DNA of 64,000 bases, from NCBI GenBank assembly GCA_019096065.1, contig JAGUCH010000001.1, forward strand, positions 1,984,001 through 2,048,000, written 5' to 3'. The DNA is from Paracyclopina nana. Lineage: Eukaryota; Arthropoda; Copepoda; Cyclopoida; Cyclopettidae. Positions 7,985 through 62,350 of the stretch are shown piece after piece. The stretch's first letter is position 1. Every line of letters begins with the position of its first letter. The notes beneath the pieces were generated by a model that was given only the letters and a program-made list of their open reading frames with translations, did no database searches and was not told the origin of the DNA. A program made the translations under genes and the position numbers.

Positions 7985-9693
7985 TCAATTTTGAGTTAGT
8001 CCACAAATGAGTCTATCAGCTTCCCTCCACCCGGACTCAATCGCGCCATGGACAGTGGAAAAGTATTTTTCATGAGTTGCTTCTCCAGCAAAAAGGACTC
8101 GATTGTCACCAACTGGCTTTGCTAAGGTTTCCGGGCCAACTCCTTTTAGCTCAGACTCAACTGTTTGATAAGAGTACGATCCAAACACATAAGGAGTTGT
8201 AGCCCATGCGGATCTTATGATGTTGATAGGATCATCCAAGATGTTGCGGAAAGCTGTCATTCTGCCCAAAAACTTTTCGAGCAATTTCTTGACATCCTCT
8301 TTCACTTGTTCATCTGAAAGCGTTTCCATTTTCCTAGCACCCTCCCCTGCAAAAGATTATGGAAGTCTGGAAGCAAAATAGCACTACAACATTAGTATAC
8401 CTGAAAGCCATAAGCTCATTATTTTGGGGTGTTCTTCGACATACGCGCCAATGATGAATCTTGTCCAATCCGCTTTGGCATCATCAGACGAGTAAGCTAT
8501 TCCTGTGTCATTGAATAAGAATTTAATGCCATCAGTTTGTGCTTGCAAAGGTTTGGCAAATTCTAGAAAAATTTTGTTGACAACTCCAAAGCCGATCGTT
8601 TCAATAGCGCTCATTTTGACATCAGGAAGAGCAGGAGTGAACAACTCCTTAGCTTTCGTTTTTAGGTATCCTAGTGAAGATGTGACAATCACAATGTCAG
8701 CTTCATACTCTTTTCCAGATTCTGTTACAACTTTTACAACTTCGCTGGAAGAGTAGTCAATCTTGGACACCACTGTCTCAAGATGAATATTGCTGTAAGG
8801 AATGTCATTCTTGAAGACTTGTACAATATCTTCATACTTGGCATTCTTCTTAAAGGAAACAAGTTGATTGCCTTCGCATAGTTGAAATTGCTTGACGGAG
8901 CCTTTGAAGCTCAAGTCATACCAATTGTCACATCCATCATAGCTTCTGACATACCGATGGTAAAAATCTTTGATTGGCCCTAAATACTTTTTCTCTTTAT
9001 CACTGAATCTGAAAACATTTAAGCATTGATTGCCTTTTGATGATATTTATAAAAAAAAGGTGATATTACTTGGCACTGAACTCTGAAAACTTGTCATTGC
9101 AATAGGTTCCATAAGATAATCCTGGAGAAGCTTGAAACTCATCGGATTTCTCGTCAACTTCTTCAATGAGTTCTTCAAATTTTCCCGACAGCTCCTCCCT
9201 GATGTATCGATTCTCTCCTTCAAAAACAAAATGCTCATCCAATTCGTCCTCAGTTGCACTGTTGGGGTTTACTATTCCAGCATCACTTGCCAGCTTAAAG
9301 GCAACATTGGCTACTTCTCCATGAATCCATTGAGCTCCCAGCTCTAGGTAGGCATTCTTGGTTCGATCAGCATAAGCTGGCACTGACCTGATGCGTCCTC
9401 CAGTTCTATTGGAAGCTTCCAGGATGGTGACATTGACAAAGCCTGACCTTAGGAGCCTGGAGGCTGCTGCCAAGCCAGCAGCTCCAGCACCAATGATCAC
9501 CACTCTTGGGACATTTGACATGTTGGCAATGTCTTGAGGATTGATTGCATCACATTCAGTGCTGAAATGCAACTGTAGGCATTTAAGTTGCAGATGCTAG
9601 ATAAGATGCTTTGTACCTTAATGAAGTTTCAGAGCTTCTTAAAATAGTATAAGCTGACAGTGATACTAAAGCTAGCACGCTTATCATACACAT
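7985..9693 (-). CDS. FAD-dependent polyamine (spermine) oxidase, copy A, with signal peptide
   Basis: Four exons on the minus strand: 9693-9617, 9561-9070, 9008-8401 and 8346-7985, 512 residues. Family enzymes oxidise spermine, spermidine or their acetyl forms, yielding hydrogen peroxide and an aldehyde. Seen: dinucleotide-binding VVIIGAGAAGLAAASRLL, then EASNRTGGRI, LGAQWIHGE (conserved His-Gly), VVNKIFLEFA with the conserved catalytic Lys, and the C-terminal FAD block RVLFAGEATHEKYFSTVHG. Exon 1 encodes a hydrophobic leader (MCMISVLALVSLSAYTIL), so copy A is probably secreted or enters the secretory path, unlike copies B and C. Exon 1 is joined in phase 2 to exon 2, as in the other copies. 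The three genes lie head to tail with identical intron positions, so they arose by tandem duplication. Whether it prefers spermine or acetylated polyamines cannot be read from sequence. Confidence 0.92.
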
Positions 9694-10043
9694 AATGTGC
9701 CAAAGTTCAACACGCTAATGCAATCTCTTATCAGGAGTACGTTTGCATTTGGGAAGATTAAAAAACGATTTTCTTCTTTGCTTACTCCAGCCAATACTGC
9801 AAACTTTGACTCGTATGCATACATTCAAGTTGGACTAAAACTTGTTTACCTTTTTTTAGTTGCTTGCTTCTGTCTTGAATGCATAGTGATATGCGTATGT
9901 GGCTGTGTCACTTTGTCAATAGCTGGATTTTTTCATTCACCCAACCTTTCAGGCTATTATTTTTGCCATCAGCTTTATTTCAGATACTCTTTGTCACCTT
10001 CTTTTTGCCAATATATTGCTAAATCTACAAAAATTACGATGGT

Positions 10044-11741
10044 TTAAAGTCGTTTAATGAGACGATCCGCCTCTCTCCATCCAGATTCTATGGCTCCATG
10101 CACAGTGGAAAAATATTTTTCGTGCGTTGCTTCTCCAGCAAAAAGCACTCTCCCATTGCCCACTGGCATAGCCAAAGTTTCAGGGCCAACTCCAGCTAAA
10201 TCTGACTCAACTGTTTGGTAGGAGTAAGAGCCGTACACATAGGGAGTAAATGCCCAGTTGGACTTTCTGACACTGATTGGTTCTTCCAAAATGCTCTCGA
10301 AACCTTTCATGCCGAGCAAAAAATGCCTCAACAATCCTGTCACATCTGCTTGAATCTTTTCGAGTGAAAGCGTTTGAACAATTTTCGCACCTTCACCTTA
10401 TTATATAGAAAGGAATCAGCCTTTAAAAAACTAAGCAATTTTGGAAAAATACCTGAAAGCCATAGGATTAATACTCGGGAATGATGGATGTCTTTGTAGG
10501 CTCCTATGATGAATCTTGTCCAATCTCTCTCAGCATCTCTTCTTTCGTAAGCTATGCCATGGTCATCAAACAAAAACTTGATGCCAGTAACATCTTCTGC
10601 TTTCAGAGGTTGGGCAAATTCGAGGAAAATTTTGTCCACTGTTCCAAACCCAATCAAGTCGATAGCTCTCAATTTCAATAGAGGCAACCCAGGGTAGAAC
10701 AATTTGCTACCCCGAGCCTTCAAGAAACCAAGTGAACACGTGACAATGACAAAATCAGCCTCAAAATACTCGTTATTGTCCCCGAGTGTAACTCTGATCA
10801 CGCTCTCGTCAGAATAGTCAATTTTGGTCACTGGAGAGTTCAACAGCACGCGTTTCTTTGGTATATCTTTTGAGAGGACGGAAATGAGGTCAGAAAAGCA
10901 GTGGTATTTCTGGAATTCCACAAACTGATTGCCATTACATTCTTCAAACATGGCTGCTGTTCCTTGGTAACTTATGGTATACCAATTATCAGCACCTTCA
11001 TAGCATCTGACAAGTCGATGATACCAGTCTTTCACTGGCAGTAAATACTTCTTCTGCCCTTCATCAAAACTGAAAAAATTAATTGCTATATTATCATATG
11101 GTATTTATGATTAACGCCCCTTACCCTTTGCTCAGTTCATGAAAAAGCGTATCACAGTAAAAGCCAAATGACTCTCCTCTACTTGGAGAATAATACTTTT
11201 TGCCCTCTTCAATACCCATGATTAACTGATCGTAAATATTGGCAATATCTTCACTTAGAAATCCCCTCTCACCGCGAAACACAAATTTCTCACAGGGCAC
11301 ACAGTTGTCTGAGCTGTCATCCAATAAACCAGCCTCATGCGCCATCTTAAAAGCAATGTTGTCCCGTTCATCTCCATGAATCCATTGAGCTCCCAGCTCA
11401 ACAAATCCTTTTGCATCCGGATCGGAGTAAGCAGGCACCGAATGTATTCTGCCACCAAGTCTATCAGAAGCCTCCAATATTTTGAACCTTCGAAAGCCAG
11501 CCTTGTGCAACTTGGCTCCTGCAGACAAGCCTGCTGCCCCACCCCCAATTATGAGTATTTTAGAGTCGAGACTAACTCCAGATCTCTTCAAGGTTGTTAA
11601 TGTAACAAAGCTGTTTTCTATGCTAGAAAGATATAGGATATTGTATATTAAATCTGTAATTTTGATGGTGTAACTACATACGTACCTTACTAGCTGTTTA
11701 ATTGGCGAAACTCTGTCTGGTTTCGATCGACAGCAACTCAT
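10044..11741 (-). CDS. FAD-dependent polyamine (spermine) oxidase, copy B
   Basis: Four exons: 11741-11686, 11622-11125, 11069-10453 and 10396-10044, 507 residues. It carries the family landmarks: ILIIGGGAAGLSAGAKL (FAD/NAD fold), EASDRLGGRIHS, LGAQWIHGD, TVDKIFLEFA (catalytic Lys) and RVLFAGEATHEKYFSTVHG. Exon 1 begins MSCCRSKPDRVSPIK, which is Cys- and Lys-rich and not a signal peptide, and resembles exon 1 of copy C. The intron after exon 1 is a multiple of three without an in-frame stop, so retaining it would insert about 21 residues without breaking the frame. This makes the exon 1 border less certain than the others. The protein ends earlier than A and C (LIKRL). It is the middle of three tandem copies; spacing to A and C is about 0.35 kb each. 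Confidence 0.9.
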
Positions 11742-12084
11742 AATTGCGGATGTTGCCTCGAAATTATAAACTATTTCCTAGGTACATGATTCGGGACACC
11801 TCATGAGTTTTCGCGCCTTCAATAATGTGCTACCTGCTTCAATTTTGTTGAAAGTTTCTCGAGTCTCTATGGACACAATCGACTTGGATAGCCATGGCTT
11901 GCTTTCTCAAACCACGTGTACGTCAAAGAAGAATGCATTCATTATGTAGAAAAATATTTCATTCAATAATTATAAAAACCACCAGGCTCCTAATTGTTGA
12001 AGTTGCACTTTAAATTTGTATTCGAAAAATTGGATAGTACAGCAGAGAGTCTCCAATTGGGTAGTGATTGCAGTGCTAAAAGCA

Positions 12085-13787
12085 TTATTTTTCATCAAGG
12101 CCACAAATGATACGATCAGCCTCCCTTATGCCTGATTCAATAGCTCCATGAACAGTGGAAAAGAAACGTTCATGAGTGGCCTCTCCAGCAAAAAGAACCC
12201 TATTGTCTCCAACTGGCATCGCCAAGGTTTCAGGCCCAACTCCTGCTGCTTCAGACTCTAGGGTTTGGTAGGAGTAGGATCCAAACACATATGGTGTTGT
12301 GCCCCAGTTGGATTTCTTGATGCTGATGGGCTCTTGAAGGATCTCCTGGAACTCTTCCATGTCACTCAGAAAATGTCGCAACAATTTCATCACATCTGAT
12401 TGCACTTGTTCAGCTGACAACGTTTCCATTTTCCTGGCTCCTTCGCCTGAAATTTTGCTTGGAGTTATGTTTGATTTTTCGTCTGTGAACTTATTTTACC
12501 TGAAAGCCATAAGCTCACAATTTTGGGGCGTTCTTCTTTATATGCAGTCAGCATGAATCTTGTCCAATCTCTCTCGGCATCTTCTTTGGAGTAAGAAATT
12601 CCATTGTCATTGAACAAAAAGTTGATGCCATCAGTGTCAGCCTTGACAGGACTGGCAAACTCAAGAAAAATCTTGTTGACAACTCCAAAACCGATCGAAT
12701 CGATAGCTTTGGATTTCAAGGCAGGCAGGGCTGGATAAAACAACTCCTGAGATTTGGCTTTCAAGAAACCTAGGGAAGCCGTGACCATGACAATATCAGC
12801 CTGGAACTCTTGTCCAGTCTCTGATGTGACTACAATGTCCTCTGGATCTGAATAATCAATCCTTGAAACGGGTGTATCCAAATGGACAATGCTTGAAGGA
12901 ATGTCCTTGCGAATGATTTCAATCAAGTCCTCATATTTGTGATCAGCTTTGTATGACACAAGTTGATTGCCTTCTGTTTCCTCAAACATCACAGCCGTTC
13001 CTTGGTAGCTCATGGTATACCAATTCTCAGCAGCATCATGGCTCCTGACACTTCTGTGGTACCAATCTTTGACTGGAAGGTAATACTTCCTCTCCTCTTC
13101 ATCAAAGCTGAAACCGCTCTTAATTAAATTAGCTAAATACTAATTTTTGGTAGCCTTACTCTGAGCTGAACTCTTTGAATTTTTCATCAGCAAATGCTCC
13201 ATATGACATGCCAGGTTCTGGCTCAAAGTCATCAATGGCATCTTCCACATCTCCAATGAGTTCATCATAAACAGTGCTAATGGCATCATTCAAATAAGCC
13301 CCTTCTCCTTCAAAAACATAGTTCTCATAGATGTCATCTTCAGTTCTGCTCAAGTTGACCAATCCTGCAGCATTGGCAATTTTGAACGCAATGTTATCTG
13401 AGTGGTTGCCATGAATCCACTGCGCTCCAATCTCAACAAAGCCAGGCTCATCTGGATTGGAATATGCTGGCGCTGACTTGATTCTTCCTCCATATCTTTG
13501 CGTAGCTTCCAGAATTTTCACATTGGTGAATCCTGCCTTGAGGAGTCTATCAGCTGCTGAAAGCCCAGAAGCTCCTGCTCCAATGATGATGATTCTGGCT
13601 GACTTGGATACATCTGGGACATTTTCATCCTCGAATGCATTGCAATCAGTCCTAATTAAGTGTGATGAATATAGTAAGGTTTGAGCCTCTTATTTTTCTA
13701 GAAATTGGGCAAAAGCCGGCTCAATTCATAGTACCTTTTTATGTTATTTCTCATTGCTGAAACTCGAGTGCGTTTGCAGCAGTTCAT
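12085..13787 (-). CDS. FAD-dependent polyamine (spermine) oxidase, copy C
   Basis: Four exons: 13787-13735, 13651-13160, 13107-12500 and 12446-12085, 504 residues. Motifs: IIIIGAGASGLSAADRLL, EATQRYGGRIKS, IGAQWIHGN, VVNKIFLEFA with the catalytic Lys, and RVLFAGEATHERFFSTVHG. Exons 2, 3 and 4 have exactly the same lengths as in copy A (492, 608 and 362 nt), which shows these two are close relatives or are kept alike by gene conversion. Exon 1 (MNCCKRTRVSAMRNN) instead resembles copy B (MSCCRSK...RVS), so N-terminus and body give different pairings. There is no signal peptide; a dicysteine near the start could be a lipidation site (inference). It is the most upstream gene of the array and presumably keeps the ancestral promoter. 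Confidence 0.92.
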
Positions 13788-57362: not shown

Positions 57363-57767
57363 TTTCGTCAATCATTTGTCAATCATTTCCAATAGGTGGG
57401 GCTTTATATTCCTCTATGCTTGACATGTTTATGCAGGTGTTTTAGCTCATTAATCAATAAAAGAAAGTTCCTGTCAGAAAACTCAAGAAATAAGCTTTAA
57501 TGTGGCAAAAACAATAAAACAATGCTTAAAAATGCAAGCTTGTATAAGGCGAAATGTCAAGAAAAGAGTCGCGCAACCTCGTGCCCACAAAATTAGTATA
57601 CAAATGTTTTTAATACAAAAAAGCTGATTTTTTAGGTTGGTCAGGCCATCTTGGGTCAAGCAAAGTAATTTGGATAGCAAAGCATAAAATTGACAATTGT
57701 TTATTTTTAACTCATAACACTAAATATTGAAATCAATTAAAATGATTGGTAGAGTAAAATTTCAGTT

Positions 57768-59485
57768 CTATATAATTATCACGTTAGATATATTGGTATG
57801 ACAGGTATGAGTGATTATTCTCGGATTTGAGTGTTTTTGAGGTGGACATGCATCGTATGGAGGAGCAGAGAATCTAGCCTCTAATGGCTTTTTCATACTT
57901 GCTTTCAATTCTTCAATTGATCTCACCAGAGTTTCGTCACAAGTTAGCGTTGAGGCATCCAAATTCTCAATTTGAGCACGAACTTCATTCAGCTGCTTTC
58001 TAAACTCTCCAATCTCAGATTCATACCTTGCCTTGACGGTTTCCCTTTTCCTTTTTAGTTTGGCAGCGTAGCCCCGATTTTTCAAGGTTCTTCTACGACT
58101 TTTCATGATACTCTGCTCCTCTTTGCTAGATCATAACAAAGCCTTTCAAATAACACAAGAAATCAAGCCTGATTTGAGACATTATTTACCTGATTCCTCT
58201 CCGTTTCACCAGTTTGTTCAGCTGCTTGGTAGACAACTTTATCAAGTCTGAATCAGAAATGACATGGTCATTGTTCCAGTTTTTTTCCTGAAGACAAGAT
58301 GATTTCACTGAATAATTCCTTGTAATGTATCTGTTCCTTTCAAATTCAGTAGAGTCTTTAGTCGAGTCTGCTTCTGCGATCGATATTTTAATTGGCAAGT
58401 TTTTCGTTAAAGCACCTCCTCTGTTCAATGATTCTTGGTATCCTATAATTGCAAGCCCTTCTGAATCAAGACATGCTGCCTCTTTTATAGCTGCGAGCAG
58501 GGCTTGAACGCGCTTGACCTCTTCATTTAGTATTTTATGGGTATTTTTCAAGCCATCTAATTCTGCTTGCCATTTTACTCTACTCTTATAGGCAGCTTCC
58601 TAAAGATAGGTTGGGGGTAAAAATAATGAAAAAAGCAAAAAAGCAAAAAACACTTACTCTATTGATGCCTTTTCTCCTTAATTCTTTCATGGCATTAGCT
58701 TGCTCTTCGGTGGCACAAAAGACCTCGCATAGCCTATTAAACTCATCTTTGTCTTTTACCTACATCACAAATGAACCTGAAATATAATATATCATTCTAA
58801 GAAAGAATTCTACTCACTTTGACCCATTCTGGAATGGAACAAGGTCTTTTTGGGCTCTCAGGAAAATTGACTCCAAAATCAGAAGATTTGACTGAGCTAG
58901 GTCCAGGTTGGTTATCGTATGGCAAATATGAGCAATTTTGTGAAGCTGATGATTGCAATGACTCAAAATCCGAAAAGTTCTCAGAGCTGGTTTGAGGCAA
59001 AGTCAAGGCTCGAGGTTGCTCTGGAATCTCTTGAGGATTTTCCCGTCTTGTCAGAGTTGGACTGAGCAACCAGACAGCAGGTATTGAATTGTCATCCCTA
59101 AATGCAGAATCGCACTTTTGGTGAACATGAGTATTGACTTTAGAAGTAATTTGAGGCTGGTACAATTTGAGATGGGTGAACTGTGAAACCTTCTTTGGCG
59201 AAGCTCCCACCAACTTGCAATGGTCTGTGAAAATAGAGTATAATTAGATAACTTAACCAGAAAATTTTAACCAGTTGCTTAACTATGTTTGCAACCACAG
59301 CTTCAATCTCGAAGATTTTCACCCTTATTTTTCCGATTCTCAAGGAAATGAAAGGAATTTTTGGAGAGAAATTACACTAGTTTTTAAAAAGTTGGCTTAT
59401 AATTGATTTGCCTGAAAGAGGTTACTTCAATTCAGCAAAATTGTCATTTACCAATTTTTTCCAGCTTTAATTGCTCCTCTAACAT
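57768..59485 (-). CDS. Protein with two bZIP domains: CNC-like then small-Maf-like
   Basis: Five exons: 59485-59452, 59224-58818, 58759-58658, 58599-58190 and 58125-57768, 436 residues. After about 145 Ser/Pro-rich residues comes bZIP 1: DEFNRLCEVF, then ELRRKGINREAAYKSR, matching the basic signature N-x-x-A-A-x-x-S-R. The first zipper leucine is 10 residues after that Arg, and heptad positions carry Leu, Leu, Val, Ile. The same exon runs on without a stop into bZIP 2: a Maf-type extended homology region (DLIKLSTKQLNKLVKRRG), then SKEEQSIMKSRRRTLKNRG and YAAKLKRKR with a short zipper (heptad Tyr, Phe, Val, Leu). RRRTLKNRGYAA is diagnostic of Maf proteins; the usual Cys-Arg after it is Leu-Lys here. 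DEFN plus the RRKGINREAA block recalls CNC factors (Nrf2 type). The small first exon (MLEEQLKLEKI) is chosen by splice phase and is the least certain part. A minus-strand AATAAA is at 57705-57700. Confidence 0.85.
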
Positions 59486-60031
59486 TTCACTTATTCACTT
59501 TTGGGTCAACATGAACCATTGCCTAAGGATTGTTTAATGTTTACAGGCTACAGCTACAATGCGCAACTTTTGACTTAATTTTTGCATAACCTCTTCTTGG
59601 AATTGTGCAGTTGTTCAATAAAATGGAATATGCGAAATTGACCCACACACGGAAGAAAGTTATTCTTAAAATATTAAGGGATGAATAATTTAGGAAAAGT
59701 AATGATTTTTATTCATTTCATTTAAAGAAAAAGTGATCTGGATGAATTAAATTAAGCATGTAAATAGTGTAAAAGCATCTTTAGTTTTACTGTGCGCAAT
59801 ATTTATTAAAAAGGCTCACGCAACCTCACGCCAATTTAATGCGCGCAGCGTTTCGTTAATGGCGCTTAAATTGCAGGTTTCGTTTGGCAGCCTGTGATTC
59901 AGCGCGTGAAACAAATGGTTTGTTTGCTTTTCAAGCTGATTTATTTTTCGCTAAATGATTAATGATCGGCTAGTTACATTAAAAACACGTTTGAGCAAGA
60001 ATATGATATTAATTTTATTGCGCGTGCACTT
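59486..60031. other. Intergenic, bZIP promoter side to TLX 3' end
   Basis: AT-rich. A minus-strand AATAAA (plus TTTATT, 60014-60019) lies 13 bp after the TLX stop. No gene seen. Confidence 0.45.
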
Positions 60032-61262
60032 TTATGTAACGGAGTTCCCATTTGTAGAACTTTGAGTTGTAGTCCAAGGTTTCAAGCCCTCCAACGCGGC
60101 CAAAGCTGAAGCCCTCTGAAAATGAAATTTGAGCACATTTTGGCGAGGTGAAAAGAAATGAATTCTCACCTCCACGATAGAAGGCTCTTCAGAATTTGGC
60201 CTTGAGCCTTCGTCAAGACCAGCGGTCGCGGCGGCGGCTGCAGCGGCCGCTGGAGGCAAAGGGGGCGCTGAATTGGATCCACCCGGAGATCCCATCGACC
60301 CTAATTGCATCGACAGAAAATACTTTGTCGCAGCTTGTCGCTCTTGCTCTCTTTCTTCAGCCGTTTGCCTCCTACACCATAAAAAGTGGAAATTATAGTT
60401 CACTAATTTTGTCCACATTTTATAGCGAAATTTCGTTTAACTTTTTTAAAGGTGTTTTTCGTTTTTTTCCAAATCGGTCTAGAATTCTGTATACTATTTA
60501 TAGAGCTTGACACAGCCTTTTTATGCCTTGTTCATGTGTTAAGAATGCCTTAAGGTATGGAAAATATTGTCTTTTAATGAAAAGTGAATCTGCCACTCTA
60601 CGAGTTTAACTTGGGACCGAGCAGCGTTTTTAATGGCAATTTTTGCGATTTTGTTTCATGATAGTTTTCAACAATTTTTCAAACCAAACCAGATTTCCTC
60701 ACGTTTCTTTGATAAAAGTTGAAATCTAACTATTGATTCTGCCAAAAAATGTCTAAAATGTGTCCCATAATTAGCCAAAACTAGATTTGTTTGCTTCCAA
60801 GTTGGCTTAAAGTCGATTTGATTTTTATGTATTAGCTGCTAACCTTGCCATAATTTTTCCCCTTCTCTTAAGGTATTTTTCGTGCATTTTCCTAAGGAGT
60901 CTAGGGCGTACATGAACAGGACATTATGAAAGTGCTAAATTTGTAGGTCCTCGTATTGTTGTGCCTTTTCCCAGCATATTTATATAAGCCACTTGAAAAT
61001 TGATTTAAGAGCAATTACCTCCACTTGGTTCTACGATTTTGGAACCAAGTTTTGACCTGGGCGTCCGTCATCTTCAGATTCTTCGCCAGAGTCGCCCGTT
61101 CCGTGGAGGCCAAGTATTTCTGCTTGTGAAACCGCTTTTCCAGCTCGCAAATTTGCAGCCGCGAAAACGACGTGCGTGGCTTTTTTCGCTTCGGTGGGGT
61201 GCGATTCTGGTAGGGATGTCCAATGCGTCGGCCTGACGCGGCCGCAGCCAGCGCAAAGGGAC
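60032..61262 (-). CDS. C15: TLX/C15 homeobox transcription factor, 3' exons, partial
   Basis: Three terminal exons: 61262-61019, 60371-60170 and 60115-60032, about 176 residues. The first carries [19 protein letters not shown], then the homeodomain ([20 protein letters not shown] through [18 protein letters not shown]). The Thr in VKTWFQNRR, instead of the usual Ile/Val, is the mark of the TLX (Hox11) family, called C15 or clawless in flies, which acts in leg-tip and nervous-system patterning. After the homeodomain follow [15 protein letters not shown], a poly-Ala tract and a short tail ending NGNSVT. The part before the homeodomain (with the expected Eh1 repressor motif) lies further upstream, not found up to the window edge. 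The CTAG acceptor at 61263 shows the exon is spliced to it in phase 1. The 650-bp intron between the first two exons contains one copy of the inverted-repeat element described below. Confidence 0.95.
60524..60924 (+). mobile_element. MITE-like inverted-repeat element, copy 1, inside TLX intron
   Basis: About 400 bp bounded by a TGTTCATGT-type end on the left and its complement (ACATGAACAGGAC) on the right. Internal landmarks shared with the other copies: TTAAGAATG..TTAAGGTA, CTCTACGAGTT, GAGCAGCGTTTTTAATGGC, TTTCTTTGATAAAAG, and near the right end CGTGCATTTTCCTAAGGAG. It has no coding capacity, so it is non-autonomous. TA dinucleotides flank it, weakly suggesting a TA target duplication. Confidence 0.75.
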
Positions 61263-62350
61263 CTAGAAAAAAATGCATTCAACTTTCCAAAATGGGAAAA
61301 AGGTGTCTTCAATCATCCATCATATCTAGATATGGAAGCTGATGAGGGCAAATTATGGCGCCCCTCCATTTGTAAGTGATTACCACCCAAACCACGGCTC
61401 AAAAGTGCCAATCAAATTTACATCATTCATGGCTACTGCGTTATTCTACAATTTCCCATTTTTCGCCAAATGGAGCTAGCGCTCGAAAAAGGGGAAAAAA
61501 GGCCAAAACCAACAACAGCAGCTAGCAGACTGCCCAATTAGGGCCAGAATCAGCCTCTAATAGTTGGCATTAGAGTTGTCATTTGTCTTCCACGAAGAGT
61601 TGTTGCAGGAGATAAAAAGCTGCTTTGAAAATTCTCGGTAATAGCGATCGAGAAAATTGAAGTCATACATGTGGTGCCGGCGCCATGACATAATTGACAG
61701 TTGTCTCCCCCTGCCTTCAAATCGATTGCCCATTCGAGATTTATAATATTATCATCGAGATAATCGATACCCTTGAAAAAAAGACTACAGCTTGACGTCG
61801 AGAGAGGTTAAAGTGCCATCATCATTATTGTCATTATCTCAAACTTTTGAGCTGTTGTTGCATGGGAGCAAAATATTTGAGCTGAATTATTAAATAAAAG
61901 TTGCCAAAGTGAATGTGGCAAAACAGGCATTTGCAAGCTCCTGCTTTGCAAAATCAGGATGTTTTGCCAGCAACAAATTTCTCTCCAATACATGTAAATT
62001 GATTTTGCTGCATATCTGTTTCTGTTCATTAGCCATCACGATACCTTGCATGCTATAGCTTCTATTGCCACTGTGAGGTAATGGGAAAAAAATCCTTTTC
62101 ATGCCACCAGCCCTTTTTTGGGCGTCTCTCCTCACCGTGCTATTTTATGACATGCTTCACAGATGTTCCTTTCTGGGCGAAAATATTGCCCAAAGGAAAC
62201 GAGTGTAATCGATCTTTCGTGCTGCTTTTGCATCAATGATTTAAAAAAAGGTGCAATCAAATATTAATTTCACATCATCACAAGAACACATGGCGAAGCT
62301 TAAAAATTGCCCCAAACAGTTGCATCACATTGAAGATGTACTATATTAAT
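61263..62350. other. Upstream of the TLX homeodomain exon, probably intron
   Basis: No TLX 5' exon or other coding sequence recognised. Inferred to be a TLX intron because the homeodomain exon is entered through a splice acceptor and its N-terminal coding part is missing. Confidence 0.4.

Follow-up and report, generated by a model that had tools for sequence, protein, structure and literature searches.

One open reading frame in the copepod Paracyclopina nana joins a CNC-like and a small-Maf-like bZIP domain: a candidate tethered bZIP pair

We analyzed a window of 64,000 nucleotides, which is the whole stretch of Paracyclopina nana DNA considered here (contig JAGUCH010000001.1, positions 1,984,001 to 2,048,000). 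On its minus strand, from 59485 to 57768, we rebuilt from five exons a frame of 436 codons that has no internal stop (Table 1). The four introns are 227, 58, 58 and 64 nt long, all with GT-AG ends, and the junctions 58658/58599 and 58190/58125 lie in this gene model exactly where the original prediction had placed them. The Pfam family bZIP_Maf (gathering cut-off 22 bits) matches the encoded protein twice (1e-17), with its best match over residues 295-375, and residues 1-256 alone also match it at 27.1 bits over residues 152-218. Domain 1 starts at residue 152, with its basic region at Asn180, and domain 2 starts at residue 295, confirming in silico the claim that two bZIP domains are encoded one after the other in a single frame. 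Zipper 1 also has the canonical spacing that had been described for it; in the canonical zipper register, N-x7-R-x9-L, its d positions read L, L, V and I followed by D. The d positions of zipper 2 are Y, F, V and L followed by C. Methionine is absent between residues 171 and 325 of the protein. With regard to individual exons, exon 2 uses the same acceptor position as exon 2 of a group of stand-alone relatives termed family A, and exon 3 is 102 nt long in the window gene and in all three family A genes. Exon 1 is the least certain of the exons since a counterpart was sought upstream of the three family A genes and no clear one was found. An Rfam scan of the window gave no matches at gathering scores.

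Table 1. Exons, protein parts and polyadenylation signals of the two-bZIP gene, in window coordinates.
Feature	Position	Strand	Content
Exon 1	59452..59485	-	Start codon, residues 1-11
Exon 2	58818..59224	-	N-terminal region common with family A: VGASPKK..., AVWLLSPTLTRR, IPEWVK
Exon 3	58658..58759	-	102 nt; CNC-like region and first part of basic region 1
Exon 4	58190..58599	-	Rest of basic region 1, zipper 1, linker, start of Maf extended homology region
Exon 5	57768..58125	-	Remainder of Maf homology region, basic region 2, zipper 2, C-terminus, stop
Basic region 1 from Asn-Arg|Glu onward, and zipper 1	58486..58599	-	Residues 182-219
Linker	58261..58485	-	Residues 220-294 (75 residues); open frame without Met; weakly similar to family B exon 2
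Remainder of Maf homology region, basic region 2 (RRRTLKNRGYAAKLK), zipper 2	57954..58125	-	
AATAAA	57700..57705	-	Past the stop codon; sole canonical poly(A) signal in 57400-59700
ATTAAA variant	58392		Inside the linker

Other genes were also observed in the window. A homeobox gene, with a homeodomain recognized by Pfam and presumably Tlx/C15-like by motif, adjoins the two-bZIP gene at 60032-61278 (-). The interval 7988-13689 (-) matches Pfam Amino_oxidase in all three reading frames tested, and is probably occupied by three amine-oxidase-like genes in tandem.

Across the genome (92 Mb, 10 contigs) the bZIP_Maf family matches 19 places, and a search with the window protein itself yields 21 matches up to E 1, the window gene accounting for four of them. 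CNC factors and small Mafs, described in the original prediction as partners encoded by separate genes, are indeed found as separate genes in this genome, with cnc1 at C5:6562.7k, cnc2 at C1:8101k and a plain maf-S, which ends in ISIPPELDQY, at C1:7727.7k. Each half of the window protein is also 41-48% identical to a family of stand-alone genes. Specifically, the family A genes at C3:8902k, C2:17397k and C4:152.7k (A_C3, A_C2 and A_C4, with models of 384, 384 and 375 residues) have the N-terminal region and domain 1 in common with the window protein and reach a stop soon after the zipper. The family B genes at C7:4609k, C4:146k and C2:12161k (B_C7, B_C4 and B_C2) have domain 2 in common with it, and first exons of their own are clear in two of the three, the C2 copy being only partly intact. 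The A and B genes and the window gene thus have homologous halves and the same intron positions, but each A or B model contains one bZIP only. In a tblastn search of 8-10 kb per locus, none of the three A loci gave a B half and none of the three B loci gave an A half, so that the window gene is the only one of the loci read with A and B in one frame. On C4 an A gene and a B gene lie head to head, 5.9 kb apart.

Several further sequences related to these families were observed. A strongly diverged B-like gene with a KQERRKNQNRLYSQTGR basic region is located at C7:4605.5k (L029:2863-3419 (+)), about 3 kb from B_C7 and on the other strand. The N-terminal exon of B_C2 (L032) is off by two bases in length relative to the other B copies and has no clear acceptor, and this copy is possibly broken at its 5' part. 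Four more Maf-like genes are present at C3:5475k, C8:4915k, C8:5117k and C1:14628k (L044, L045, L046 and L035, respectively). The first two are related to each other and have a different basic-region intron. Maf-type genes thus seem to have multiplied in this genome. Downstream of A_C4 there is a fragment of the family A N-terminal region (C4:154764-154907, 83% identity). Just downstream of A_C2 there are open frames built of a short repeated unit (HSDQRDQSNLCVLGDHF...; L033:3496-3934 (-)), and this repetition suggests a tandem DNA repeat.

The small-Maf character that had been proposed for domain 2 is borne out by the tree, which groups this domain with family B (98/98) and family B with Maf (96/97). 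Domain 2 contains the Maf extended homology region together with a RRRTLKNRGYA basic region that has Tyr at Asn+3, its profile search against PDB finds MafG at 1.8e-16, and at 15 diagnostic columns it has 12 Maf residues, no CNC residues and three others. Taken together, the sequence comparisons indicate that domain 2 is small-Maf-derived, even though it departs from the short small-Maf form with little beyond the bZIP, being part of a 436-residue protein with two bZIPs. The replacement of Cys-Arg by Leu-Lys in basic region 2, also pointed out earlier, is real. At this site the stand-alone B genes have Cys-Arg, Ser-Arg and Gly-Arg, and the Leu-Lys of the window gene predicts an altered or weaker DNA contact at the Maf half-site.

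The assignment of domain 1 to CNC stood in part, in that its key residues and an intron common with cnc2 point to CNC but the profiles and the tree do not separate CNC from Maf. At the 15 CNC/Maf-diagnostic columns, domain 1 has six CNC residues (Asp-28, Phe-26, Glu-15, Gln-13, Gly-2 and Ala+3), three Maf residues (Lys-8, Arg+1 and Lys+10) and six others. The ungapped CNC register, with Phe 26 residues before the invariant Asn, Glu at -15 and Gln at -13, is present in the window gene and in all three A genes. When the CNC basic region RRRGKNKVAAQNCRKRK is set against the window sequence RRKGINREAAYKSRVKW, Gly, Asn, Ala-Ala and Arg are kept, but Lys, Val and Cys are not. A CNC profile scores domain 1 at 18.9 bits and a Maf profile at 10.0 bits (with 2000 shuffles peaking at 10.7 and 9.2, respectively), as compared to 23.5 for CNC versus 24.1 for Maf with A_C3, and 11.6 versus 20.1 with A_C4. 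The profile search against PDB places NF-E2 p45 first (E 0.013) and MafG next (0.026). In the trees (77 columns, 21 rows; both the profile and tree tests took two of the three A genes and omitted A_C2, which is 94% identical to A_C3) domain 1 groups with family A (94/91). The best tree puts family A beside Maf plus B with weak support (51/80), and a grouping of A with CNC is not rejected (p 0.344).

Intron positions also bear on this assignment. A phase-0 intron between Asn+1 and Asn+2 of basic region 1 occurs in the window gene, in all three A genes and in the genome's own cnc2, and this common position favors CNC for domain 1. Note that cnc1 is without this intron, so only one of the two cnc genes carries it. 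A phase-2 intron within the Ser before Lys-Glu of the Maf homology region is likewise found in the window gene and in all three B genes, and the maf-S intron sits ten residues further on. The spacing of the homology region was also considered as proof of CNC origin and was dropped, since the maf-S gene of the same genome has equal spacing and spacing alone cannot decide between CNC and Maf. We consider domain 1 to be CNC-like with reservations, and its descent from CNC to be tentative.

The same spacing, along with the fact that the broad bZIP_Maf family matches both domains, would be in keeping with the alternative raised in the original prediction, in which the two domains are an internal duplication of one Maf bZIP within the window gene. 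This was rejected by the tree tests, where a clade of domain 1 with domain 2 has an AU p of 0.0006 and a clade of A with B a p of 0.037. The nearest paralogue family also differs between the two domains, and we regard a duplication of this type as highly improbable.

We also considered that there could be adjacent or overlapping A-type and B-type genes with separate transcripts, which are joined only in our model. In favor of this, the B genes are short and their first exons small, a pyrimidine-rich CAG|G in phase 0 is present in the linker at 58288, near the expected start of B exon 3, and the ATTAAA variant also lies within the linker. Against this, the A half has no closing stop and the B half no starting Met, translation from the internal Met325 would leave out most of the Maf homology region, and the linker frame is open in 0.8% of 5000 dinucleotide shuffles. 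For an in-frame intron inside exon 4 that would use the CAG at 58288, there are three GT-like candidate donors. A linker-like open frame was seen in 190 of 3082 window tiles, a count in which the tiles include coding DNA. Two separate genes are thus improbable in our judgment.

Comparison of the linker with the tail and 3' region of the A genes gave no likeness above chance, with a score of 24 versus a shuffle maximum of 33 (60 shuffles) and, in a second test, with 344 and 1748 of 2000 shuffles equally good. When the linker is compared as DNA with exon 2 of family B, the best stretch has one common starting point, GAATTTGAA, whichever of the three B genes is used, with 449, 76 and 12 of 1000 shuffles equally good. 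At the protein level, equally good scores were reached by 210 and 36 of 2000 shuffles for two B genes, and with a profile they were reached by 16 of 1000 shuffles and 10 of 1140 window tiles. These values are only suggestive of homology between the linker and B exon 2. Exon 4 as a whole matches a family A exon over nt 43-105 (score 46 versus a shuffle maximum of 38) and a family B exon over nt 323-410 (score 64 versus 48; 60 shuffles each). The weak linker likeness to B exon 2 would be in keeping with an A gene having been joined, head to tail, to a B gene that was almost complete.

Substitution patterns were compared between the window gene and its relatives, leaving out A_C2. For the A half against A_C3, pS is 0.76 and pN 0.25 (75 codons), and for the B half against B_C7, pS is 0.71 and pN 0.32 (118 codons). 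Overall pS exceeds pN in all six comparisons with A and B genes, with the remaining four having bootstrap ranges above zero. These results show both halves to be under apparent purifying selection, in which selection before and after the joining is not separable. The selection on both halves, with this same caveat as to its timing, the open frame and the intact splice sites all argue against a decaying or dominant-negative copy, in which the Maf half would misread DNA and the gene would block the A or B proteins. Such a copy could account for the Cys-Arg to Leu-Lys change in basic region 2 and for the less usual d positions Y and F in zipper 2, and we rate it as clearly unlikely.

The direction of the event, fusion or fission, was judged from the genes of this one genome. 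In the case of fission the joined gene would be older, and families A and B would be halves copied from it. This is congruent with a tree in which the window gene branches apart from the B copies (95/89) and, at weak support, also from the A copies (90/16), and with both halves being about equally distant (at best 48% identical) from A and B. The A copies and the B copies are younger than the distance that separates the window gene from them, with dS of 0.13-0.28 for three A pairs and of 0.38 and 0.52 for two B pairs. However, this same genome encodes cnc and maf-S separately, and families A and B possess start and stop codons and additional exons of their own. We think that fission is a rather unlikely origin, if one that deserves attention.

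Relatives outside this genome were sought in a collection of 5.8 billion proteins, in which a search reaches only proteins that are 0.55-1.75 times as long as the query. The whole joined protein had no match at E 0.01 (3538 candidates) and a 261-residue piece across the junction had none at E 0.1 (371 candidates), with stand-alone A or B relatives also being absent from both searches. As a control, the genome's maf-S matched 1592 of 1610 candidates at E 0.01, the best at 87% identity. Among the best 120 of these 1592 that were listed, merc is the source label of 18 of the best 20; we take merc to be a marine eukaryote metatranscriptome set, which would point to a small marine crustacean, perhaps a copepod. 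Given that A and B relatives are also unseen, and given the query-length limits, the absence says little on the joined form alone. With no relative found, these searches show no cross-species conservation of the joined form, which counts against the tethered-pair reading given below. Among the papers listed in searches on bZIPs or fusions, titles and the opening parts of abstracts contain no natural CNC-Maf fusion, and the terms 'two bzip', 'fusion' and 'cnc' do not occur, by term search, in the main text of a bZIP family survey (PMC4736632).

In our interpretation, held at somewhat better than an even chance, the window gene encodes one two-module bZIP protein that would act as a natural CNC/Maf-type pair tethered in one chain. 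ARE/MARE sites are bound by heterodimers of a CNC factor with a small Maf, and this network, which serves in oxidative stress, xenobiotic responses and development, is controlled in part through the choice and the supply of partners. The N-terminal module would be of family A type, with its own N-terminal region and a CNC-like bZIP, and the C-terminal module would be of family B type, a small-Maf-derived bZIP tied on by the linker of about 75 residues. A single mRNA would carry both modules, in keeping with the stretch free of Met between residues 171 and 325 and with a sole AATAAA that lies past the stop, the stand-alone A and B proteins would be partners, and the joined protein may bind an ARE/MARE-like site as one chain. 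The existence of each half as a separate paralogue also provides a gene-fusion (Rosetta-stone type) argument for an A-B partnership. Excerpts from PMC12561426 describe an engineered chain with this layout, in which a CNC domain, a flexible 88-residue linker and sMafG form one polypeptide, with the CNC part first and the sMaf part second as in the window gene. The heterodimers of the engineered chain, as described there, bind their own site with higher affinity than homodimers do. It is this common layout that leads us to take a tethered CNC/Maf-type pair as most likely.

Two modes of pairing can be envisaged for such a protein, as its own two zippers could come together or each of its two heads could take up a separate A or B protein. 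A crude tally of g-e' charges gives one attractive and one repulsive contact for zipper 1 with zipper 2, versus two attractive and no repulsive contacts for each zipper with itself, so by this tally pairing of zipper 1 with zipper 2 is not favored. The slight preference for like-with-like, along with the many candidate partners that the genome encodes, would suit a real two-domain protein whose zippers do not pair together and which is instead a two-headed bridge or a chain former on DNA. Each zipper would then homodimerize or take stand-alone A, B, cnc or maf-S partners. We lean against this reading, which seems fairly unlikely, since the tally is small as well as crude, engineered constructs of the same layout assemble as heterodimers according to the excerpts from PMC12561426, and the linker length should permit pairing within the chain. 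Returning to the tethered pair, its strictest form would be a natural single-chain factor in which the zippers pair within the chain to give a fixed-ratio heterodimer that does not need free small Maf, in a lineage that keeps stand-alone partners. This form we advance tentatively, at a good deal less than even expectation.

Known CNC-sMaf heterodimers consist of two proteins from two genes. The complexes of NRF2, NF-E2 p45 or BACH1 with a small Maf (PDB 7x5e, 29hh) contain the same two half types as the window gene, in which, by contrast, both halves are in one frame and both basic regions have diverged. VRI candidates with two predicted bZIP domains from Asterias and Magelona transcriptomes, mentioned in one sentence of PMC9939569, also have two bZIPs in one protein, but they are of VRI type and the passage is silent on a CNC or Maf part. 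In comparison to the engineered CNC-sMafG chain, the window gene is natural with a linker of about 75 residues, whereas the 88-residue linker of the construct is designed and cleavable. As the excerpts from PMC12561426 describe the gel assay as being done on protease-cut protein, that assay indicates that joining steers assembly, and not that an uncut chain works. A gene tying both partners together would, if this reading is true, be the natural counterpart of these tethered laboratory chimeras and would offer a direct test of what is gained by making a bZIP heterodimer obligatory.
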